From positions 1-39,990 of the forward strand of contig JAEULD010000295.1 in assembly GCA_016792765.1 (NCBI GenBank): a DNA stretch of 39,990 bases. The letters run 5' to 3'. Under the pieces are notes generated by a model. The model was not told where the DNA came from. It saw nothing but the letters and a program-made list of their open reading frames with translations, and ran no database searches. Position numbers and translations under genes: made by a program. Below, piece after piece: positions 1 through 12,230 of this stretch (position 1 is its first letter; each line of letters begins with the position of its first letter). This DNA comes from Candidatus Odyssella sp. (GTDB lineage Bacteria > Pseudomonadota > Alphaproteobacteria > Bin65).

Positions 1-3000
1 CGCTTGCGGCTGCGCGGGCTGCTCGTCGAGCTGGTCGGCCAGCGGCAGGCCGATCAGCGCGGCGAGAGCGGCATTCGTGCCGGCATTGCGTTCGTTCGTC
101 CCGCTGTTGCGGCCGGACCAGGTCCCGCCCGGGCCGTCGCAGGTCGGGGGCGGCGGCACGTCGCAATCGCACACCTCGCCCTCTTCGACGCGGATGCGGA
201 CCACGGCCGTATCGATCCCGCCTTTGCCGTCGCCGACCGCGTAACTGAAAGTGTCGGTCCCGGTGAAGCCGGCGAACGGCGTGTACGTGAAGGTTCCGTC
301 GCCGTTGTCGACGAGCGTGCCGTTGAACGTGCTGGTGTAGGCCTCGACCCGGAGCGCGTCGCCGTCGGCATCGTCGTCGTTGGCGAGGATCGCGATCGTG
401 ACCGGCAGGCCGCATTCGGTGGCCGCACGGTCGTTGTTCGCCTCGGGCGGCGTGTTCTCGTCCTCCTCGCAGCCGCACACCACCGAGTATTCGTCGGACT
501 CGACGATGTGGCTTTCGACGTAGCTGGTGCCTTCGCCGGGAACGATGGCGGCGGTCTGAGCGCCGTTCGTCGCCGTGGAGTTCTCGAGCACGAGCCGGAA
601 ATCTTCGACCCCTTCGTCGATAGCGTCGGCCGAAGGCGTGATATCGAACTCGAGCTGCGTGGTCGACGCGTTCGCGGCGAACGTCACGCGGACGGCACCG
701 TTGCCGAGATTCGCGACCGTGATTCCGGTCTCGCCCGCCGCGGCCTCGGAGAGCGCATCGAACAGGAAGTCGGGCCCGCCGAGATCGGCGAAGCTGGCCG
801 AATCGTGCCCGTTGTGGAGCGAGAGGAACTCCACGCGGACGTCGACGGAGCGCGTCTGCCCGGCCTCGAGCTGGAGATCGGAGATGCCGATCGTGTAGGG
901 CGGATCGACTTCCTCGATCAGGCAGGGCGGGCCGACGATGAACCATTCCGGCGGCGGCGCCTGGCAATCGCCGCTGTCGAAGATGTAGCCCGCGCCCTCG
1001 ACGACGCGCGTGACGTCGCAATGGTCGAGTTGGTCCTTGTTCGCGACGGTGAGCATGAAGCTCTCGTCGCCCTCGGCCACGCCGTCGGTGAACGTATCGA
1101 TGCGCACCTTGATGCCGGTGGAGCCGGTCGGGATCGTGACGATCGTGCCGTTCGGCCCGCCCGCGTCGAGCCAGGTGGCGCCGCCGTCGACGCTGTACTC
1201 GAAGTTCCCGGCCTCGAGGTCCTTGCCGGGCTGCGCGGCGTTGGTATCGACCGTCGACAGCGGCTGGATCGCGAGATCGAGCTCGATCGGCTCGTCGGTC
1301 GCGTTGGACATCGTCAGGTCGAAGACGAGCTTGTCGCCCTCGAAGCCCTCGGCGTCGCTGATCGTCAGCTGATATTCGTCGGGATCGAGCACCTGGCTGT
1401 TCACGAAGCTCGTGCCTTCGCCGGGCACGACCGTGCCGGGAATGGCGCCGCCGGTGACGATCTCGTTCTCGAGCACGATCTGGAAGTCCTCGACCGGCTC
1501 GTCGATGCCGTCTTCGGCCGCGAGTACGTCGAACGTGATCTCGTTCGTCGAAGCGTTCGCGGCGAACGTGACCCGCACCGCGCCATTGCCGAGATCGGTG
1601 ACGGTGATGCCGGTTTCGCCGGCCACCGCCGCCGAGATCGCGTTGAAGAGGAAATCCTCTCCGCCGACGAAGTCGCCGAACGAAGCGACTCCGTGGCCCG
1701 GCGCCGTCGTGCCGAATTCGACCCGGACATCGATCGAGCGCGTCTGGCCCGGTGCGAGCATGAGGTCGGAAACGCCGAACGTGAAGGCGGGGTCGATCTC
1801 CTCGACCAGGCACGGCGGGCCCTTGATGTAGTAGGTCGGGCCGCAGTCGTTGTTGCCGCCGTCGAAGATGTAGCCTGCACCGTCGACGATGAACGTGACG
1901 TCGCACTTGTCGAGCTGATCCTTGTTCGCGACGGTGAGCAGGAAGCTCTCGTCGCCCTCGAGCGCGGCATCGCCGAACGTCTCGATGCGCACGAGGATCG
2001 AGGTGGCGCCGATCGGAATCTGCACGATCGTGCCGTTGGGCCCGGTCGCGTCGAGCCAGGTGACGCCGCCATCGACGCTGTACTGGAAGTTCCCGGCCTC
2101 GAAGTCGACGCCGGGCGTGGCGGGATTGGTGTTCACCGTGGCCAGCGGCTCGGCGCGGAGATCGAGCGCGATCACCTCGTCGCTCGGATTCGAGAGCGTG
2201 ATCTCGAAGACGAGCGGAGCGCCCTCGCTCCCTTCGGCGTCCTTGATCGTGACCTGGTATTCGTCGAGGTCGAGGATCTGGCTGTTGACGAAGCTCGTGC
2301 CGGGGCCGTCGATGACGTCTCCCGGCGTGGCGCCGCCGGTCACCTGCTCGTTGAAGATGACGAAGCGGAAATCCTCGATCGGCTCGTTGTTGCCGTCGTC
2401 GACGGCCAGGATATCGAAAGTGAGCTGATTGGTGGACGCATTCGCGGCGAACGTGACGCGCACGACTCCGTTGCCGAGATCCTGGACGGTGATCCCGGTC
2501 TCGTTCGCGGCCGCGGCCTGAATCGCGAGGAACAGGAAGTCATCGCCGCCGACGAAATCGGCGAATGACGCGGCGCCGTGCCCGGGCTGGATGCTCAGGA
2601 AGTCGACGCGGATGTCGATCGAGCGCGTTTGGCCCGGCTCCAGCAACAGCTGGCTGACGCCGAACGTGAATGGCGGATCGACCTCCTCCACCATGCAGTA
2701 CGGACCCTCGATGAACCACTTCGGCTTCTCGTCGCACGGCGGCGGCGGGGGCGGCGGCGGCGGGGGCGGCGGCGGCGGCGGGCTGCCCGGGGGGCTGCCC
2801 GGCGGGCCCGGCGGCGGAATCAACGTGTAGGGTAGCGGCGGCAACGGCCCGAGGTGATTGAGCGGTCCGAGCGTGCCGCCCGGCGCGAATTCGGTGAACA
2901 GACGGCCGCCTTCGGCGCCCGGGTCCTCGGGCCCGGCGCCCGGCGCAAGGTCGGTCAGGGCGATCTTGTCGCCTTTGGCGAAGTAGACGCCGATGCTCTT

Positions 3001-3627
3001 GTTGTCCTTGAGAGCGCTGTAGCCTTCGAGGGTGAGAACGGCGCCGTCCTTGAAGGTGAGGACGAGGTTTCCGTCCTTGTCGACTTGCGATTTCGCCACT
3101 TGGCCGAAGCCGAAGTTCAGCGCCAACGGCTTGTCGTCGGTGAGCTTGAAGCTCTGTTTCTCGCCGGCCGGCGGTTTCTGGATGATGACGACGTCGCCGG
3201 GCGTGCCCGGAGCGGGCTTTTCGGCGGTCTTGCGCGGTCCGGCGGTGGGCGACAGCAATTCCGTGAAAGCGTAGTGCTTGCCGTCCGGCTGGATGATGGT
3301 GGTGCGGACTTCGCCCAGCATCCCGAACGCGGTCATGTACTCCTTGAGAACGACCTTGCCGCCGTTCTCGAACTCGAGCACGAGGTCGTCCTTGACCACC
3401 TCGCGCGCCTTCACGTCGGCCGCGTCGAATGCCAGTTTCAGCGGGCGGCCGGCCACGACGGTGACGTTGACGGTCTGGCCCGCATCCGGCTTCGGCACGT
3501 CGATCGGCGTCACGCCCGACTGAGCGATCTCGATGCGACCGATGCCGGAGTCCCTCGTCGCGCCGATCTCGAGCCCGTCCGTGTCCTCGGCGGCTCCCGC
3601 TCCCGTGCGGCCCTTGTCTGTCGTCAT
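1..3627 (-). CDS. Giant type I-secreted repeat protein / adhesin, C-terminus outside window
   Basis: The reading frame is open from the ATG at 3627 to the window edge (1209 residues, no stop). A GGGAG lies 7 bases before the start. There is no Sec signal peptide. Residues ~40-240 hold two related beta-rich segments with motifs such as DLVLEFENGGKVVL and NLVLTFKDGAVLTL, resembling the N-terminal domains of alphaproteobacterial large type I substrates (BapA-like; inference). Residues 283-297 are 15 consecutive prolines. Three Calx-beta-like modules begin at residues 304, 599 and 895. The third is shorter and leads into a cadherin-like (tandem-95) domain at ~1060-1146 (ILANDDDADGD, GTFTYTP, GTDTFSYAVGDGKGG), followed by a Cys/Pro linker. 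It is probably a cell-surface or released adhesin exported by the adjacent ABC-HlyD-TolC system. The C-terminal secretion signal and any RTX repeats would lie outside the window. Fourteen cysteines, clustered at module borders, are odd for this class. Confidence is high for the frame and moderate for the adhesin role. Confidence 0.85.
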   Translation of the reverse strand, partial: MTTDKGRTGAGAAEDTDGLEIGATRDSGIGRIEIAQSGVTPIDVPKPDAGQTVNVTVVAGRPLKLAFDAADVKAREVVKDDLVLEFENGGKVVLKEYMTAFGMLGEVRTTIIQPDGKHYAFTELLSPTAGPRKTAEKPAPGTPGDVVIIQKPPAGEKQSFKLTDDKPLALNFGFGQVAKSQVDKDGNLVLTFKDGAVLTLEGYSALKDNKSIGVYFAKGDKIALTDLAPGAGPEDPGAEGGRLFTEFAPGGTLGPLNHLGPLPPLPYTLIPPPGPPGSPPGSPPPPPPPPPPPPPPPCDEKPKWFIEGPYCMVEEVDPPFTFGVSQLLLEPGQTRSIDIRVDFLSIQPGHGAASFADFVGGDDFLFLAIQAAAANETGITVQDLGNGVVRVTFAANASTNQLTFDILAVDDGNNEPIEDFRFVIFNEQVTGGATPGDVIDGPGTSFVNSQILDLDEYQVTIKDAEGSEGAPLVFEITLSNPSDEVIALDLRAEPLATVNTNPATPGVDFEAGNFQYSVDGGVTWLDATGPNGTIVQIPIGATSILVRIETFGDAALEGDESFLLTVANKDQLDKCDVTFIVDGAGYIFDGGNNDCGPTYYIKGPPCLVEEIDPAFTFGVSDLMLAPGQTRSIDVRVEFGTTAPGHGVASFGDFVGGEDFLFNAISAAVAGETGITVTDLGNGAVRVTFAANASTNEITFDVLAAEDGIDEPVEDFQIVLENEIVTGGAIPGTVVPGEGTSFVNSQVLDPDEYQLTISDAEGFEGDKLVFDLTMSNATDEPIELDLAIQPLSTVDTNAAQPGKDLEAGNFEYSVDGGATWLDAGGPNGTIVTIPTGSTGIKVRIDTFTDGVAEGDESFMLTVANKDQLDHCDVTRVVEGAGYIFDSGDCQAPPPEWFIVGPPCLIEEVDPPYTIGISDLQLEAGQTRSVDVRVEFLSLHNGHDSASFADLGGPDFLFDALSEAAAGETGITVANLGNGAVRVTFAANASTTQLEFDITPSADAIDEGVEDFRLVLENSTATNGAQTAAIVPGEGTSYVESHIVESDEYSVVCGCEEDENTPPEANNDRAATECGLPVTIAILANDDDADGDALRVEAYTSTFNGTLVDNGDGTFTYTPFAGFTGTDTFSYAVGDGKGGIDTAVVRIRVEEGEVCDCDVPPPPTCDGPGGTWSGRNSGTNERNAGTNAALAALIGLPLADQLDEQPAQPQA
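451..2718 (-). repeat. Three tandem Calx-beta-like modules, period ~295 codons
   Basis: Modules start at 2718 (WFIEGPYCMVEEVDPPFTF), 1833 (YYIKGPPCLVEEIDPAFTF) and 945 (WFIVGPPCLIEEVDPPYTI). The spacings are 885 and 888 bases. Each carries PGQTRSID/SVDVRV, then GNGxVRVTFAANAST, an EDFR/EDFQ segment and TSFVNSQ or TSYVESH. Modules 1 and 2 continue into a second half (DEYQVTIKDAEGSEG; FQYSVDGGVTWLDA; EGDESFLLTVANKDQLD) that is missing from module 3. Similarity is visible at both protein and DNA level, so the array probably arose by tandem duplication. Confidence 0.85.
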
Positions 3628-3942
3628 GGCGACGCTCCCAGCGTGCAATTCCCGGTCGAGTTGGGCATTCCCGGCGCGAGCGCCGACTGCGCCGCGCGAT
3701 AACGCGGCGCCGTTTCAGCCGAGCCGGAAGAAGAACCAACCCATCGCCGCCGCCTCGGGGAGCGGTCTCGTCGGTCCCAGCCGGGACCGGAGGCGGCCGC
3801 GATGACGGCCCCGCGGGGCCAGTCATCCATTTTGCAGGCGGGCGTTAACCAATATCGTTAGGCCAGCGGCAAAGATGAGGGTGATTATCCGAGGAAATTG
3901 TGGGCGTCAAACGAGATCATCGTTAATTCCGCCGATATTTCT

Positions 3943-4050: not shown

Positions 4051-5610
4051 CTACTGCTGTGGCGGCTGGCCGGGCTGCGGCGGTTGGCCAGGCTGCGCCG
4101 GCGGAGCCGGCGGCGCCGGATCGGTCGCCGCGGGCGGCGGCGGCGCGGGCTGCCCGCCGCGCGGCCCGAGTGCCGGCGTGCGCCACGTATGAATGAAGTC
4201 GTCGCGCCGCGGCGTGATGTCGTCGACCGTGCTGTGGAACACGCTGCTCGGCGGCGGACGCGTCGCCTCGCCCGGCGCCGCGATGCCGAGCGTATCGAGC
4301 AGGCGGCCCATGCTGGCGAGAGTGCGGAAGATTCCGAACCTCACCGTCGCTTCTTCGGTGGCGATGCCGGTCTGGTTGTTGAAGACCTCGTTCTGGATGT
4401 CGAGCAGGTCGAGCAGCGTGCGGCGGCCGCGATCGAACTGCTGCGAATAGGCCACGCGAACCCGCTCGTTCGCCGCCAGCTGCTGTTGCAGCGCCACGCG
4501 GCGCTCGCGGGCCGACTGAACGGCGTTCCAAGACACGCGCGTCTGCTGCGCGACCTCGCGGCGCGAACGTTCGAGCGTCTCGCGCGATTCGTAGAGGCGC
4601 GCGACGGCTTCGCGCTTGCGCGCCACGTCGGAGCCGCCGCGATAGAGATTCCAGCGGCCCTGCAGCATGAGGGAGAACTGCTCTGCCTGACCGCGCGTGC
4701 CGTCGGCGTTGTAGAGGAAGTTGTAGTTCGCCTCCGCCGTGATCGTCGGGAACCAGCGCGAATCGGCGACGCCGATCGCCGCATGCGCGACCCGCACGTC
4801 GGCGGTCGCGGCGCGGACCGCGGGAGCCTGCTCGGTCGCCGCCGTCACGGCTTCGTCGACGCTTGCCGGCAGCGCGCTGTCGGGCGAGCTCGTGTCGGTC
4901 AGCGCCGTCGGCTGTTCGCCCACGGCCTGGACGTAGAGGGCCACCGCGTCGCCATACTGGCGACGCGCCGTGGCGACGTTGGCTTGCGCGTTCGAGAGAC
5001 GCGCCTGCGCCTGATCGACGTCGGACTGCGGACCGCGGCCGCCCCGCGCGCGCGCCTGCACGCGACGCAGGATTTCCTCGTGCACGCGCACGTTCTGAGT
5101 CGCGATCTCGAGGATGCGCTGCGTGCGCTGGACTTCGAGATAGGCCTCGATGGCGCGCAGCGCGATCACCTGCGCCGTGTCCATCGTGCGATGCGCCGAC
5201 GATTCCACGCGATAGAACTGGCGGCTCACCTCGCTGTCGGTGTTGAAACCGTCGAACAAGAGCTGACGGAGGCTGACGCCCGCCTCATAGCGGTTCATGT
5301 CGACCCAGCCGCCCTCGCCGTTGATCCGACCCGGGCGGGTGCGCGTCGCGACGTTGTTGGTCCATTCGTGACCGATCGCGCCGCGCACGTCGAGTTGCGG
5401 CAGATAACCGCCGCGCGTCGCGCGCAGCTCCTGCTCGATCGCGCGTCGCGAGAAGCGCAGCTGGCCGACTTCGGGATGGGTGGCGACCGCGGCTTCCGCC
5501 GCTTCCTTCAGGGTCTTCGCACCGGCGCCGCCGGAGGAAAGGGCGAGAGCGCCGATCGCGGCCGCGGCAGCAGCCGCCATGCGCGCAGATTTCGTGGCAA
5601 GGCTCTTCAT
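4051..5610 (-). CDS. Type I secretion outer-membrane channel, TolC/LapE family
   Basis: This is a 519-residue periplasm-spanning channel protein. I start it at 5610 (MKSLATKSARM), preceded by GGGGA, rather than at the in-frame codon 48 bases upstream, because it then opens with a clean signal peptide (basic start, Ala-rich core, GAGA cleavage region). The mature part has the two-fold outer-membrane efflux repeat: TLKEAAEAAVATHPEV at the start, LRQLLFDGFNTDSEV in the first half, and FSLMLQGRWNLYRGGSD plus RRTLLDLLDIQNEVFN in the second. The last ~40 residues are an unusual Pro/Gln/Ala-rich tail. It should dock onto the HlyD-type proteins encoded divergently from 8903 and export the giant protein encoded next to it. 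The family is confident; the substrate assignment is from context. Confidence 0.9.
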   Translation of the reverse strand: MKSLATKSARMAAAAAAAIGALALSSGGAGAKTLKEAAEAAVATHPEVGQLRFSRRAIEQELRATRGGYLPQLDVRGAIGHEWTNNVATRTRPGRINGEGGWVDMNRYEAGVSLRQLLFDGFNTDSEVSRQFYRVESSAHRTMDTAQVIALRAIEAYLEVQRTQRILEIATQNVRVHEEILRRVQARARGGRGPQSDVDQAQARLSNAQANVATARRQYGDAVALYVQAVGEQPTALTDTSSPDSALPASVDEAVTAATEQAPAVRAATADVRVAHAAIGVADSRWFPTITAEANYNFLYNADGTRGQAEQFSLMLQGRWNLYRGGSDVARKREAVARLYESRETLERSRREVAQQTRVSWNAVQSARERRVALQQQLAANERVRVAYSQQFDRGRRTLLDLLDIQNEVFNNQTGIATEEATVRFGIFRTLASMGRLLDTLGIAAPGEATRPPPSSVFHSTVDDITPRRDDFIHTWRTPALGPRGGQPAPPPPAATDPAPPAPPAQPGQPPQPGQPPQQ

Positions 5611-6127
5611 GATTTCCCCGCGAATCCCCGTTTTCGTCACTGAGTACAAGCGCGACATGGTTCCACGCGCTCTCCCGTAACACCGGCGACTATTGGTTCA
5701 GTATGCTCGGCTACTTTTGAGACGAACAAGTAAATAATTGATTAACCAGAGTGCAAGCGAAATCGTAGTTAAGGTTCCAGCCCAATTTTACAAGGATCTT
5801 ACCCACCCGCCCAAGCATCTCGATGCCCCAGGCGTCCCCGCATCTGCCCATGGTAATGTATCACATTTCAGCCCCCATCGCCACCGTCCGCCCGTTTACT
5901 TTACCGACCGATCCTGCGGCGCTTGGCAACGAAGTGTTAACTTTGCTGGCTCAGGTTCCGTAGTTTCGGAGGCAAGGGCCACGGCGGTCTCATGGCTTCC
6001 CGGCGATGCTGCGCCGAGGCCATCGGGAATGCTACTGTGGCCCCTTGCCCCGAACGCCGTCGCGCTGGGCGTGGCGGTGGCCTGAGCGGAAATCTTCTCG
6101 TCGGCGGAGTTTCGGGGGAGCGCCAGC
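5611..6127. promoter_or_regulatory. Divergent promoter region of the secretion locus
   Basis: These 517 bases separate the channel gene (minus) from the exporter operon (plus). Bases ~5690-5800 are markedly AT-rich for this genome (for example GTAAATAATTGATTAACC) and are the most likely place for the divergent promoters. A frame at 5738-6085 has no recognisable domain, skewed composition and no good ribosome-binding site, so I do not call it. I could not define -35/-10 boxes with confidence. Confidence 0.45.
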
Positions 6128-8893
6128 GTGTCCACTGCCAGTGTCGGGAGAGTCGTGCAAGACCACGCCGCCACGCAGCAACGAGAGGAAACGGCGCTGC
6201 CGCCCGGTCAAGTGCCGTCGACGCGCCGTGCGCCACCGCCGCCCGGCGAGGCGTTGACGCCCGGCATGTCGGCGCCCCCCGTTACGGGGCCTGCGGCGCC
6301 CTCTGCCCCTGCGGCGCCGACTCCGATCCCGCAGTCGGGCGGCGATTCGCGCCGCGTCGCGCCACCCGCACGCCCGCTCGTGTCGCCGGCGCAACCGATC
6401 CAGTTCCCGTCGCGGGTGGACGAGGCCACGCCGCATTTCGAAGCGGCGCGTGGCCCCCGGCACGACGGCAACGTCACGCCATTGCGCCCGGCCCCCTCGC
6501 CGTCCAATCCGTTTCCGGTGCCTCCGGTGCAGGTGCACGCCGCCTCTGCGCCCGCGGCCACGACCATTCACGTTCCCGCGGCACGCGCGCCGCACGCGGC
6601 CCCGGCCGAGGCCATGCGGGATGCGCGCCCGGCCGCCGAGCCGCGCCCGGCGCCGCCGCGTGCCGCAGCGGCGATCCCGCCCCCGCCCATCGTGGAGCGC
6701 CGCGGGCCGGCAGACGAGGCAGCCGCCGCCGTCGCCGCCGCGGCTGCCGCTTCGAATTGGCGCATTCCGCAGCAGACGGCGCGCGCCGACGACCCGCTGC
6801 TCGACTGCCTGATCGTCCTGACGGCGATTTTCGAGCGCCCGCATTCGGCCGAAGCGCTGACGGCCGGCCTTCCGCTGGTGCAGAATCGCCTGACCCCCGA
6901 GCTTTTCATCCGCGCGGCCTCGCGCGCCGGCCTGGCGGCGCGCATCGTCAAGCGCCCGATCGGCGAGATTTCCGATCTTTCGCTGCCCTGCGTCCTGCTG
7001 CTCAAGGACGCGCGCGCCTGCGTGCTGACGGCGCTCAGCGGCGGCAAGGCGACCGTCATCGTGCCCGAAACGGGACATGGCACGGTCGAACTGCCGCAGG
7101 ACCACCTCGCCCAGCGCTACACCGGCTACGCGGTGTTCGCGCGGCCCGAATATCAGTTCGACGCGCGTTCGGATGCGACCGAGCTGCGCCCCACGCGCAA
7201 CTGGTTTTGGGGAACGCTCGGGCGCTTCTGGCGCATCTACACGCAGGTGGGCCTGGCCGCGATCTTCGTGAACCTGTTCGCGATCGCGCTGCCGCTGTTC
7301 ACGATGAACGTGTACGACCGCGTGGTCCCGACCAAGGGGCAGGAGACGCTGTGGGTGCTGGTGCTCGGCGTCGGCATCATTTTCGCGTTCGAGTTCCTGC
7401 TCCGAATGCTGCGATCGTACTTCGTCGACACGGCCGGACGCAGCGCCGATGTGATCATGGCCAGCGCGGTCTTCCAGCAGGTGCTCGGCATCCGGCTCGA
7501 CCAGCGCCCGCAATCGGCCGGCGCGTTCGCGCAGCAATTGCGCGAATTCGAGAGTCTGCGCGATTTCTTCACCTCGGCCACGCTCGTCACGCTGATCGAC
7601 CTGCCGTTCGTGCTGCTGTTCATCGCCGTGGTCGCGATCATCGGCGGGCCGGTGGCGCTGGTACCGCTGATCGCGGTGCCGCTGATCATCGGCGTCGGCT
7701 GGTTCCTGCAGGTGCCGCTCAACAAGGTCGTGACGCAGTCCGCGCGCGAATCCGCCCAGAAGCACGCGCTGCTCGTCGAAAGCATCGTCGGCCTCGAGAC
7801 GATCAAGGGCCTCGGCGCCGAAGGTCGCACGCAGCGGAACTGGGAGCGCTTCGTCGGCATGACGGCCAAGAGCGCCCAGCGCGCGCGAGAGCTCTCGCAG
7901 TTCGGCCAGTATTTCACCGGCCTCGTGAGCCAGATCGTGAGCGTCGCCGTCGTCGTGGTCGGCGTCTACCTCATCTTCGAGGGCCACCTGACCGTGGGCG
8001 CGCTGATCGCCTGCACGATCCTGACCGGCCGCGCGATGGCGCCGCTGACCCAGGTCGCCGCGCTGCTGACGCGCTTCGACCAGTCGATGGTCTCGCTCAA
8101 GACCATCGACAAGATCATGTCGATGCCGGTCGAGCGGCCGGCCGGCACGCAGTTCGTCCACCGCCCGGTGCTGCGCGGCGCGATGGAGTTCCGCGACGTC
8201 GAATTCACCTATCCGAACCAGCCGCTTCCGGCGCTGGACGGCGTCTCGTTCTCGGTGCGGCCGGGCGAGCGCGTCGCCATCATCGGCAAGATCGGCTCCG
8301 GCAAGAGCACGATCGAGAAGCTGATCCTCGGCTTCTATCAGCCGCAGAAGGGCGCGATCCGCATCGACGGGACCGACATGAAGCAGATCGATCCCGCGGA
8401 TTTGCGCCGCAACATCGGCTACGTGCCGCAGGACGTGTTCCTCTTCTTCGGCTCGGTCCGCGAGAACATCGCAATGGGCGCGCCCCATGCCGACGACGCC
8501 GCGATCCTGCGCGCCGCACGCATCGCGGGGGTGGACAGCTTCGTCGCGCGCCATCCGCAGGGCTTCGATCTTCAGGTCGGGGAGCGCGGCGAGGCGCTCT
8601 CGGGCGGCCAGCGCCAGTCGATCGCCATCGCGCGCGCGCTCGTGCGCGACCCGAACATCGTGATCCTCGACGAGCCCACCAGCGCAATGGACAAGGGCTC
8701 CGAGGACTGGCTGATCGCACGCTTGCGCGAGATCCTCGAGGGCAAGACGCTGGTCTTGGTGACGCAGCGCCTTTCCCTGCTCACGCTGGTCGAGCGCGTG
8801 ATCGTCATGGACAGCGGCAAGATCGTCGCGGACGGGCCGCGCGACAAGGTGCTGGAGACGCTGGCCAAGGGCCAGATCAGGGGAGCGAGCTAG
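6128..8893 (+). CDS. Type I secretion ABC exporter, LapB-like, with degenerate C39 domain
   Basis: This 921-residue inner-membrane permease/ATPase starts at GTG 6128, behind GGGGAG. Residues 1-209 are a Pro/Ala-rich, probably disordered extension. A C39-like domain follows (DDPLLDCLIVL onward) that lacks the catalytic His, so it should bind substrate rather than cleave a leader. The transmembrane domain begins with the VGLAAIFVNLFAIALPLFTMNVYDRV region typical of LapB-type exporters. The nucleotide-binding domain has Walker A GKIGSGKST (720-728), signature LSGGQ (824-828) and Walker B VILDEPTSAMD with E849 as catalytic base. The H-loop position holds Gln (Q880, VTQRLSLL) instead of His. It is the first gene of a three-gene operon with two HlyD-type proteins. 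The likely substrate is the giant protein encoded at the left edge. Confidence 0.93.
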   Translation: MSTASVGRVVQDHAATQQREETALPPGQVPSTRRAPPPPGEALTPGMSAPPVTGPAAPSAPAAPTPIPQSGGDSRRVAPPARPLVSPAQPIQFPSRVDEATPHFEAARGPRHDGNVTPLRPAPSPSNPFPVPPVQVHAASAPAATTIHVPAARAPHAAPAEAMRDARPAAEPRPAPPRAAAAIPPPPIVERRGPADEAAAAVAAAAAASNWRIPQQTARADDPLLDCLIVLTAIFERPHSAEALTAGLPLVQNRLTPELFIRAASRAGLAARIVKRPIGEISDLSLPCVLLLKDARACVLTALSGGKATVIVPETGHGTVELPQDHLAQRYTGYAVFARPEYQFDARSDATELRPTRNWFWGTLGRFWRIYTQVGLAAIFVNLFAIALPLFTMNVYDRVVPTKGQETLWVLVLGVGIIFAFEFLLRMLRSYFVDTAGRSADVIMASAVFQQVLGIRLDQRPQSAGAFAQQLREFESLRDFFTSATLVTLIDLPFVLLFIAVVAIIGGPVALVPLIAVPLIIGVGWFLQVPLNKVVTQSARESAQKHALLVESIVGLETIKGLGAEGRTQRNWERFVGMTAKSAQRARELSQFGQYFTGLVSQIVSVAVVVVGVYLIFEGHLTVGALIACTILTGRAMAPLTQVAALLTRFDQSMVSLKTIDKIMSMPVERPAGTQFVHRPVLRGAMEFRDVEFTYPNQPLPALDGVSFSVRPGERVAIIGKIGSGKSTIEKLILGFYQPQKGAIRIDGTDMKQIDPADLRRNIGYVPQDVFLFFGSVRENIAMGAPHADDAAILRAARIAGVDSFVARHPQGFDLQVGERGEALSGGQRQSIAIARALVRDPNIVILDEPTSAMDKGSEDWLIARLREILEGKTLVLVTQRLSLLTLVERVIVMDSGKIVADGPRDKVLETLAKGQIRGAS

Positions 8894-8902
8894 GACCGCG
8901 TC

Positions 8903-10342
8903 ATGGCCAGGATCCCGGGCATCGGCGACTTGATCGAGGGCGCGAAGGCGGCCTCGCGCGGCGCGTCGGCGCCGCCGCGGCACCGCGAGGACGCGGAGAT
9001 GATGCCCGAGCTGTATGCGGCGGCGATCCGCCGGCCGCACCGTCTCGCCACCTGGGCCCTCGGCGCGGTCGGCGCCGGCCTTCTCCTGTTCGCGGTCGCC
9101 GCCTCGGTCGTGGATCTCGACGAGGTGACGCGGGCCGACGGCAAGGTGATTCCCTCGGGCCAGACGCAGATCGTGGCGCATCTCTACGGCGGCATCGTGC
9201 AGGATATTCTCGTGCGCGAGGGCGACGAGGTGAAGCCCGGCCAGGTGCTGCTGAAGATCGACAACCGCGATTCGCAGGCCGAGTTCGGCGAGAATCGCGC
9301 ACGCATGGCGGCGCTCGCGGCCCGGGCGGCGCGGCTGCGGGCCGAGGCCGAAGGGCGCGACGAGATCGAAATCCCCGGCGACATCGAGGCGGCCTCGCCG
9401 CAGGCTGCCGCGCTGGAGCGCCGGCTGTTCCAGGCGCGGCGCGAAAGCCTCGTCTCGGAGCTGAAGGGCCTCGACGAGCAGCTGCGGCAGCGCGAGCAGG
9501 AGCTTGCGCAGCAGGAGGCGATCGTCGCGAGTCTCGAGAAGAAGCTCGCCTCGCTGCGCGCCGAATACGGCAACGCGCTGCGCGTGGGCGTCAACGTGGT
9601 CGGCCGTCTCGAATTGCTGCGCCTACAGCGCGAGACCAAGGACGCGGAAGGCGAACTCGCCACCGAGCGCCTGAAAGTGCCGCGCATCCAGGCCGCGATC
9701 CTCGAGGCGCGGCAGAAGCACGCGGACCGCAGGAACGCGTTCGTCTCGGAAGCGCGGCGCGACCTGAACGACAGCGAAAGCGAACTCGCGCGACTCAGGG
9801 AGAAGCTCGAGAAGCTCACGTTCGACGTGAAGACCAACGAGGTGAAGGCGCCGCTGCGCGGGATCGTGAAGCAGCTGCGGGTGGCCACGAAGGGCGGCGT
9901 GGTCAAGGCCGGCGAGCCGCTGGTCGAGATTACCCCGCTGGACGATACGCTGGTGATCGAGGGCCGCGTGCGGCCGAGCGACATCGCGTTCATCCGACTC
10001 GGCCAGCACGCGCTGGTGAAGATCACGGCCTACAATTACGCGACCTATGGCGGGCTCGAAGGCCGCGTGTTCGAGATCAGCCCTGACGCGATCGAGAGCA
10101 CGGAAAAGCCGGGCGAGACGCACTACCGCGTGAAGGTGCGCACCACGAAGAGCCACCTCGATAGCGACGGCAAGACCCTGCCGATCGGGCCCGGCATGAC
10201 GGCGCAGATCTCGATCAAGATCGGCGAGAAGTCGCTGCTGGCCTACATCCTGAAGCCGCTCACCAAGTCGTCGCGACGGCTGCAGGTCGACGATCCGAGC
10301 CGCCCGGCCGAGACCGGCCGGCCGAGCGCCGAGAGCCTTTGA
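8903..10342 (+). CDS. HlyD-type membrane fusion protein, first copy
   Basis: This 479-residue periplasmic adaptor links the ABC exporter to the TolC-like channel. It has a short cytoplasmic N-terminus, one membrane segment at about residues 49-71 (LATWALGAVGAGLLLFAVAA), a split lipoyl domain (GGIVQDILVREGDEVKPGQVLLKID near 100-130 and VKAPLRGIVKQLRV later), a long coiled-coil hairpin rich in Glu/Arg/Gln, and a C-terminal beta-barrel (PSDIAFIRLGQHALVKITAYNYATYGGLEG). It starts 9 bases after the exporter stop and ends 3 bases before a second, complete HlyD-like gene. Length and domains match the LapC/HlyD family. It was probably duplicated locally, since the next gene has the same layout and many of the same motifs. 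Confidence 0.93.
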   Translation: MARIPGIGDLIEGAKAASRGASAPPRHREDAEMMPELYAAAIRRPHRLATWALGAVGAGLLLFAVAASVVDLDEVTRADGKVIPSGQTQIVAHLYGGIVQDILVREGDEVKPGQVLLKIDNRDSQAEFGENRARMAALAARAARLRAEAEGRDEIEIPGDIEAASPQAAALERRLFQARRESLVSELKGLDEQLRQREQELAQQEAIVASLEKKLASLRAEYGNALRVGVNVVGRLELLRLQRETKDAEGELATERLKVPRIQAAILEARQKHADRRNAFVSEARRDLNDSESELARLREKLEKLTFDVKTNEVKAPLRGIVKQLRVATKGGVVKAGEPLVEITPLDDTLVIEGRVRPSDIAFIRLGQHALVKITAYNYATYGGLEGRVFEISPDAIESTEKPGETHYRVKVRTTKSHLDSDGKTLPIGPGMTAQISIKIGEKSLLAYILKPLTKSSRRLQVDDPSRPAETGRPSAESL

Positions 10343-10345
10343 GCC

Positions 10346-11713
10346 ATGGACGGATCGGCGCCCAAGCCCGACACCTTCAGCTACACCGATCCCGCCTTTC
10401 TGCATTCCAGCGCGGAGGCGGTGGCCACCGAAGGCGCGCGCCGTTTCGGCGGCTATCTGGCCATGGCGTTCGGCGCGCTGGTGCTGGCGCTCCTGGTATG
10501 GGCGCGTCTTTCCTATATGGACGACATCACGCGCGGCGAGTCGCGCGTGATCGCGTCGGGGCAGAACAAGGTCGTACAGGCGCCCGATGCCGGCGTTGTC
10601 AAGGCGATCTTCGTGAAGGAGGGCGACACGGTCGCCGCCGGCCAGCCGCTGATGCGGATCGACGCAACGCCTTCCAAGGCCACGCTCGACGAGAAGCTGG
10701 CCCGGCTCTACGCGCTGATGGCCCGGGTGGCGCGCCTCACCGCCGAGGCCGAAGACAAGGATACCGTGGCTTTTCCGGACGAAGTGCGGCGCAACGCGCC
10801 GCGCGAGGTGGAGCAGGAGACCGCCGCGTTCCGCAGCCGCGCGCATCAGCAGAAGGGCGAGATCGCGACGCTCGAACAGCAGGTCGCGCAGAAGGAGCAG
10901 CAGCTCCGCGAGGGCGAGAGCACCGTGGCGCGGCTCGACGCCCGATTGCGGCTCAACCGCGCCGAGGAGTTCGACACCTGCCGCGCCTACCGCACCGGCT
11001 CCGCGTCGCTTTCCGAATGCCAGGTGGCGCAGCGCGCGTCGCTCGAAACCGCGGGACAGCTCGAAAGCGAGCGGCGCGGCATTCCGCGCGCCGAGGCCGC
11101 GCTGCGCGAAGCGCGGCAGAAGGTGGAAGACAAGCGCGCGCAGTTCCGCTCCGAGGCACGCAAGGACCTGAACGAGTCGCAGGCGCAGATCGACCAGCTT
11201 CGCCCGCAGATTCAGAAGGAGGGCCAGACGCTGGCGCTGACCGAGCTGAAATCGCCGGTGCGCGGGATCGTCAAGACGGTCGGCGTGGCCACGATCGGCG
11301 GCGTCGTGAAGGCCGGCGACGCGCTGATCGAAATCGTGCCGGCCGAAGACACGTTGCTGGTCGAGGTTCGCATCAAGCCCGCGGACATCGCCTTCGTGCG
11401 CCTCGACCAGGACGCGACGGTGAAGATCAGCGCCTACGACTATTCGATCTTCGGCGGCATCGAGGGCAAGGTCGTCGAGATCAGCTCGGACGCCATCGTC
11501 GACGAGAAGAAGAATTCGCATGGCGAGCGCGACACCTACTACCGCGTTCGCGTGCGCACGCAGAAAGCCTATCTCGAGCGCGACAAGCAGATACTGCCGA
11601 TCATCCCCGGCATGACCGGCCAGGTCGACATCCGGACCGGAAGGCGCACGGTGCTCGACCGCCTGCTCGACCCGTTCCACCGGCTGCTCAGCGATTCGCT
11701 CGGCGAACGCTGA
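10346..11713 (+). CDS. HlyD-type membrane fusion protein, second copy
   Basis: This 455-residue paralogue of the preceding gene follows it by 3 bases. Its membrane segment is near residues 33-53 (YLAMAFGALVLALLVWARL). Lipoyl halves are VVKAIFVKEGDTVAAGQPLMRID and LKSPVRGIVKTVGVATIGGVV, and the barrel motif is PADIAFVRLDQDATVKISAYDYSIFGG. The hairpin region contains two cysteines, C212 and C225, in a segment (TCRAYRTGSASLSEC) with no counterpart in the first copy. These would be oxidised in the periplasm and could form a disulfide. All domains are intact, so it is not a decaying duplicate. Two adaptors could form a mixed ring or serve different substrates; the sequence cannot decide. Confidence 0.92.
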   Translation: MDGSAPKPDTFSYTDPAFLHSSAEAVATEGARRFGGYLAMAFGALVLALLVWARLSYMDDITRGESRVIASGQNKVVQAPDAGVVKAIFVKEGDTVAAGQPLMRIDATPSKATLDEKLARLYALMARVARLTAEAEDKDTVAFPDEVRRNAPREVEQETAAFRSRAHQQKGEIATLEQQVAQKEQQLREGESTVARLDARLRLNRAEEFDTCRAYRTGSASLSECQVAQRASLETAGQLESERRGIPRAEAALREARQKVEDKRAQFRSEARKDLNESQAQIDQLRPQIQKEGQTLALTELKSPVRGIVKTVGVATIGGVVKAGDALIEIVPAEDTLLVEVRIKPADIAFVRLDQDATVKISAYDYSIFGGIEGKVVEISSDAIVDEKKNSHGERDTYYRVRVRTQKAYLERDKQILPIIPGMTGQVDIRTGRRTVLDRLLDPFHRLLSDSLGER

Positions 11714-11852: not shown

Positions 11853-12230
11853 TCAGTTGACGGTGCGCTGACGCGGCGTGTAGCGGCCGTTCTTGAACTC
11901 GGCGAACATGTCGTCGACCTGGGGATGGCCGACGGGCTTGCCGGTTTCGTCGGGCAACAGGTTCTGCTCGGACACGTAGGCGATGTAGGTCGATTCCGCG
12001 TTCTCGGCGAGCAGGTGATAGAAGGGCTGATCCTTGCTCGGCCGGATCTCGGCCGGGATCGACGCGTACCACTCCTCGGTGTTCGCGAACACCGGATCGA
12101 CGTCGAAGATGACGCCGCGGAACGGATATACGCGGTGCTTCACCACCTGTCCGATGCGGAATTTTGCCGTGCGCAATTCGTGCGGCGGCGCCGGCGGGGT
12201 CGTGAGCGTATCCTTCATCAGGCCATTCAT
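11853..12230 (-). CDS. hspQ: Heat shock protein HspQ (YccV-like)
   Basis: This 125-residue protein has the YccV-like/HspQ domain: AKFRIGQVVKHRVYPFRGVIFDVDPVF, then EEWY, PFYHLLAE and TYIAYVSEQNLLPDE. In Escherichia coli, HspQ binds hemimethylated DNA in vitro and acts as a specificity enhancer and substrate of the Lon protease. The visible match covers the full family length. Either the ATG at 12230 or the one at 12218 could be the start; neither has a strong ribosome-binding site. It is convergent with the secretion operon and divergent from the molybdenum hydroxylase gene, so it is likely monocistronic. Confidence 0.92.
   Translation of the reverse strand: MNGLMKDTLTTPPAPPHELRTAKFRIGQVVKHRVYPFRGVIFDVDPVFANTEEWYASIPAEIRPSKDQPFYHLLAENAESTYIAYVSEQNLLPDETGKPVGHPQVDDMFAEFKNGRYTPRQRTVN

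Follow-up and report, generated by a model that had tools for sequence, protein, structure and literature searches.

The type I secretion systems (T1SS) described so far provide several points of comparison for a secretion locus found at the end of an alphaproteobacterial contig. In E. coli HlyB-HlyD-TolC, which has a single adaptor gene, three HlyB dimers are assembled with six HlyD (PMC9751043), two HlyD being bound per HlyB dimer (PMC10386944). The LapBCE/LssB-type systems combine an LssB-type exporter with a degenerate C39-like domain, an HlyD-family adaptor and TolC, with a giant repetitive adhesin encoded alongside. In the four-component T1SS RtxB-RtxD-RtxE of the Vibrio MARTX toxin one component is doubled, namely the ABC protein, while the adaptor remains single (PMC3034196). 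Two diverged adaptors for one transporter and one TolC-type channel are found in TriABC-OpmH of Pseudomonas aeruginosa, an RND drug pump with RND-type adaptors. TriA and TriB are 36% identical (PMC4338810); both have been demonstrated to be needed, and their roles differ: TriA is needed mainly for the channel, whereas transporter activation falls to TriB (PMC4338810, PMC13328181, PMC12838394). The two HlyD-like proteins of Legionella longbeachae belong to two separate systems (PMC2824747). Our literature search, which covered mostly non-subscription papers and is hence not proof of absence, turned up doubling of the ABC protein in T1SS (MARTX) and of the adaptor in RND pumps, and no T1SS whose single exporter is served by two adaptors.

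The locus analyzed here occupies the 5′-most part of its contig, such that the start of the window (the whole stretch of DNA under study, 39,990 nucleotides) coincides with the contig end. A first-pass annotation had described two HlyD-type adaptors in tandem, separated by 3 bases, in one secretion operon, and this arrangement was confirmed (Table 1, where the adaptors are named H1 and H2); the two genes lie in the same frame. The ABC exporter bears the Walker A motif GKIGSGKS, the signature LSGGQ and a Walker B motif, and its C39-like domain has a non-Cys residue at the position of the catalytic Cys, as judged by eye. With an exporter above the TIGR03375 cut-off and with adaptor and TolC genes close by, this is a T1SS of the LssB type, in which the usual pattern of one adaptor per exporter is broken. 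The parts are ordinary members of their families and would together serve for adhesin secretion in the LssB/Lap manner; the doubled adaptor is what differs. In relation to MARTX the situation is reversed, as it is the adaptor that is doubled here. The likeness to TriABC-OpmH lies in the two diverged adaptors (H1 and H2 share 43% identity across about 421 residues), yet here they accompany an ABC protein exporter.

Table 1. Features of the locus, in window coordinates.
Feature	Position	Strand	Evidence and remarks
Large adhesin, likely substrate	1..3648	-	1216-aa open frame reaching the contig edge, 3′ part beyond it
TolC-family outer membrane channel	4051..5658	-	TIGR01844 type_I_sec_TolC 296.6 bits, cut-off 225.15; OEP match
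LssB/LapB-type ABC exporter, degenerate C39-like domain	6128..8893	+	TIGR03375 998.6 bits, cut-off 693.1
H1, first HlyD-type adaptor, 479 aa	8903..10342	+	TIGR01843 371.7 bits; mean pLDDT 88.0; orthologues in G001, G002, G004
H1 residues 376-384, beta-barrel loop AYNYATYGG	10028..10054	+	AYD-x-SI in 83 single adaptors
H1 disordered C-terminal tail replacing E-R	10289..10339	+	pLDDT 42-56 by blocks of ten
H1/H2 junction	10340..10348	+	H1 stop TGA, GCC, H2 start ATG; coupling
H2, second HlyD-type adaptor, 455 aa	10346..11713	+	TIGR01843 343.2 bits; mean pLDDT 88.8; orthologues in G001, G002, G004
H2 C-terminal helix DPFHRLLSDSLGER	11669..11710	+	E-R kept; K (99% in single adaptors) lost
HspQ (YccV-like) gene	11853..12230	-	convergent to H2

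In the putative substrate, an N-terminal domain is followed by a long proline-rich linker and by three repeats, each about 296 aa in length, that begin at residues 321, 616 and 912; a cadherin-like/Big domain is also present, and the protein has matches to Cadherin_5, Big_9 and Calx-beta. The N-terminal domain is 39% identical to that of the adhesin located at the same place in the genome G004 (see below), and its match to BapA_N is weak (E 0.099). The di-alanine LapG site of the pattern searched is absent from residues 1-350, and the C-terminus, where an RTX/T1SS signal would be expected, lies beyond the contig start. Just as in LapBCE/LssB-type systems, LapG-like proteases are encoded in the genome: three Peptidase_C93 proteins were found (G000:C301:2645-2956, G000:C256:14971-15312 and G000:C256:16151-16483), the last two being neighbours. 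This suggests proteolytic control of a retained adhesin.

Both H1 and H2 score well above the TIGR01843 cut-off of 208.65 bits with nearly full-length matches, and both are matched by the Pfam families HlyD_3 and HlyD_D23. In the AlphaFold models, each has an N-terminal transmembrane helix, a split lipoyl domain, a three-helix region with a long alpha2-alpha3 hairpin, a beta-barrel and a C-terminal helix; Foldseek structural matches include LipC (5nen) and HlyD (5c21/5c22). The initial description of both copies as complete thus holds for the domains (anchor, lipoyl domain, hairpin and barrel) and fails at the C-terminus of H1, which lacks the E-R residues discussed below. An assembly artefact is ruled out, since the same pair occurs on single contigs of two other genera; an assembly duplication is likewise excluded by the independent contigs and by the identity of the copies, which is only 43%.

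The genome, which is 92.8% complete, contains a single exporter above the TIGR03375 cut-off, that of the locus. Apart from H1 and H2 it has no full-length HlyD relative; one further match spans 163 aa (E 7e-6). Since this is the sole T1SS exporter above the cut-off and only two HlyD adaptors exist in the genome, H1 and H2 are left without any other partner. The interpretation of one of them as a leftover adaptor of another exporter was discarded on the same ground. Further single, distantly related HlyD adaptors occur elsewhere in the pair-bearing relatives (L118 in G001, L119 in G002 and L120 in G004) and are absent from the genome of the window.

Tandem orthologues were found in three further genomes, one of the same genus (G001) and two of other genera of the same family (G002 and G004), so that the pair spans three genera with the same synteny; the pair-bearing genomes are only four, and two of them are about 75% complete. 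H1 is identical to its orthologues by 78%, 52% and 51%, and H2 by 85%, 52% and 48% (G001, G002 and G004, respectively). The concern that one copy might be unconserved in relatives was therefore not borne out. In G004, a single contig carries the complete order adhesin-TolC-ABC-H1-H2-HspQ; in G002, ABC-H1-H2-HspQ is seen as far as the contig end, and the G001 contig ends inside H2. The H1 stop and the H2 start are separated by +3 bases in the window, +1 in G001, -4 in G002 and +3 in G004. Such tight coupling in all four genomes suggests equal synthesis of H1 and H2. The same frame in two genomes might evoke a read-through H1-H2 fusion, which is unsupported given that G001 and G002 have H1 and H2 in different frames. 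No counterpart of the adaptor pair was found in the seven genomes of a fourth genus (g3).

A comparison with G001 gave dN/dS values of 0.30 for H1, 0.21 for H2 and 0.15 for the exporter. Judging from these ratios, both copies are under purifying selection within the genus, dN/dS between genera being less informative owing to high dS, and a pseudogene reading of the copies is thereby ruled out. In a maximum-likelihood tree of 72 adaptors, the four H1 proteins and the four H2 proteins form separate clades (100/99 each), which are sisters within a joint H1+H2 clade (100/99). This sister relationship points to a single tandem duplication that predates the divergence of the three genera; the second adaptor is not foreign, and the idea that either copy was taken over from a foreign T1SS is excluded by the same placement. 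The stems of the two clades are of similar length (0.33 and 0.29), so that neither copy has raced away.

How unusual the tandem is was evaluated with the 80 best H2 relatives and their flanks, drawn from 84,980 species of bacteria and archaea. A locus was regarded as evaluable if an exporter immediately preceded the adaptor and the downstream sequence extended for at least 1.5 kb; 66 of the best 80 qualified, and a second adaptor was present in none of them (0/66). The rule of one adaptor for one exporter, which the first-pass annotation had invoked, is thus upheld in 66/66 of the nearest loci, and tandem adaptors are not routine there. In samples of the class and of the phylum (about 150 matches listed for each, the latter from 59 genomes, inspected by eye), adjoining adaptors were seen only in this window; the closest other case among the matches listed is that of G379, where two adaptors lie 1.7 kb apart with space for an exporter between them. 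For the nearest loci there is good support that the tandem is rare, whereas the class and phylum listings are no census.

The two copies have lost near-invariant residues unequally. In 83 single adaptors of the same group, the last two residues are E (83/83) and R (81/83). This E-R end, near-universal albeit outside the formal TIGR01843 definition, is kept by all four H2 proteins and by none of the four H1 proteins, which end instead in a variable tail, disordered in the model. The C-terminus of H2 resembles the SLHER end of E. coli HlyD, and H1 is unlike HlyD in this respect. Mutational work on HlyD by Schuelein et al. in 1994 reportedly found the C-terminal residues to be important. In addition, all four H1 proteins have lost the D-x-S-I of the beta-barrel loop, where the single adaptors are conserved at 100% (D), 98% (S) and 99% (I). 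H2 departs at other positions, namely at the K of the C-terminal helix (residue 442, 99%) and at a hairpin E (residue 186, 96%), and one conserved D is altered in both copies. Over the 40 columns conserved at 95% or more, H1 breaks six and H2 three, while no such column is broken in 45 of 52 control groups, each made up of four single adaptors. This count alone is indecisive because the broken columns came from scanning and because six were broken in one of the control groups too; the loss of the C-terminal E-R is the stronger sign of inequality.

H2 also lacks a conserved Leu near the hairpin turn. We do not take this as proof of weaker TolC binding, since the RLT motif published for E. coli HlyD (PMC3391258), placed by manual alignment, falls outside the turn. 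Within the genus, two cysteines (residues 212 and 225) flank the tip of the H2 alpha2-alpha3 turn (window 10979-11020), and neither H1 nor the H2 proteins of the other genera have them.

As to why one exporter is accompanied by two adaptors, we lean, with some reserve, towards a division of labour between H1 and H2 in one pump, most likely within a hetero-hexameric ring. Had the duplication merely raised the amount of adaptor, with interchangeable copies, the shared operon and fold would be accounted for; however, the copies are only 43% identical, they form clean separate clades across three genera, and the losses of near-invariant residues are copy-specific and fixed in 4/4 H1 proteins, all of which makes this the least probable of the explanations considered. 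Two alternative homo-hexameric rings sharing the exporter, for two export modes or two substrates, would be compatible with the anchor, lipoyl domain, hairpin and barrel kept in both copies as a full adaptor fold, and with the ancient retention of H1 and H2. We nevertheless regard such rings as unlikely: tight coupling in four genomes argues against switching between the copies, the genome has one exporter only, and H1 is without the C-terminal E-R carried by nearly all single-adaptor relatives.

It is just as doubtful that H2 alone forms the ring, with H1 acting as an accessory adaptor-like protein that holds the adhesin during retention or senses the substrate on the cytoplasmic side. The altered C-terminus and beta-barrel loop of H1 speak for such a role, and the LapG-like proteases make a retained-adhesin cycle plausible; yet in H1 the whole hairpin and the lipoyl domain are kept and the score against the HlyD model exceeds that of H2, which itself shows changes at other conserved positions. 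The first-pass annotation had left the choice between a mixed adaptor ring and two export modes. The former is better supported because of the single exporter, the tight coupling, the one old duplication and the unequal motif loss, and the latter gained no positive support.

In the mixed ring that we favour, a T1SS for a giant surface adhesin would combine one homodimeric ABC exporter with two HlyD-type adaptors that have diverged and whose genes are tightly coupled; the pair goes back to one tandem duplication in the family stem and has been retained since. H1 and H2 would form one hexameric ring of three alternating H1-H2 heterodimers (3:3), each exporter dimer being matched by one H1 and one H2 beneath a trimeric TolC. 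This would fit without any other change because published HlyB dimers bind two HlyD. The two proteins may split tasks normally combined in a single adaptor, such that H2, with its intact C-terminal E-R, would carry the function of that end. What has been observed are the genes, their conservation and origin, the single exporter and the unequal losses; that the ring is a hetero-hexamer, that it is 3:3 and which copy does what, we infer. By analogy alone, H1 and H2 might share their tasks in the manner of TriA and TriB. To a ring that is obligately hetero-hexameric, with a duplication splitting the HlyD functions into a TriA/TriB-like asymmetric pair for ABC protein export, we give an about even chance.

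HlyD rings are composed of six copies of one protein, which makes the roles of the two adaptors per exporter dimer genetically inseparable. If H1 and H2 have indeed been separated by nature, each ring position could be mutated alone. The pair would then let one tell the adaptor in contact with the exporter from the one that opens TolC, and ask what function the nearly universal C-terminal E-R has in T1SS adaptors.

Finally, the HspQ gene next to the locus is convergent to H2 in all four pair-bearing genomes, that is, in the window and at L034, L035 and L036.
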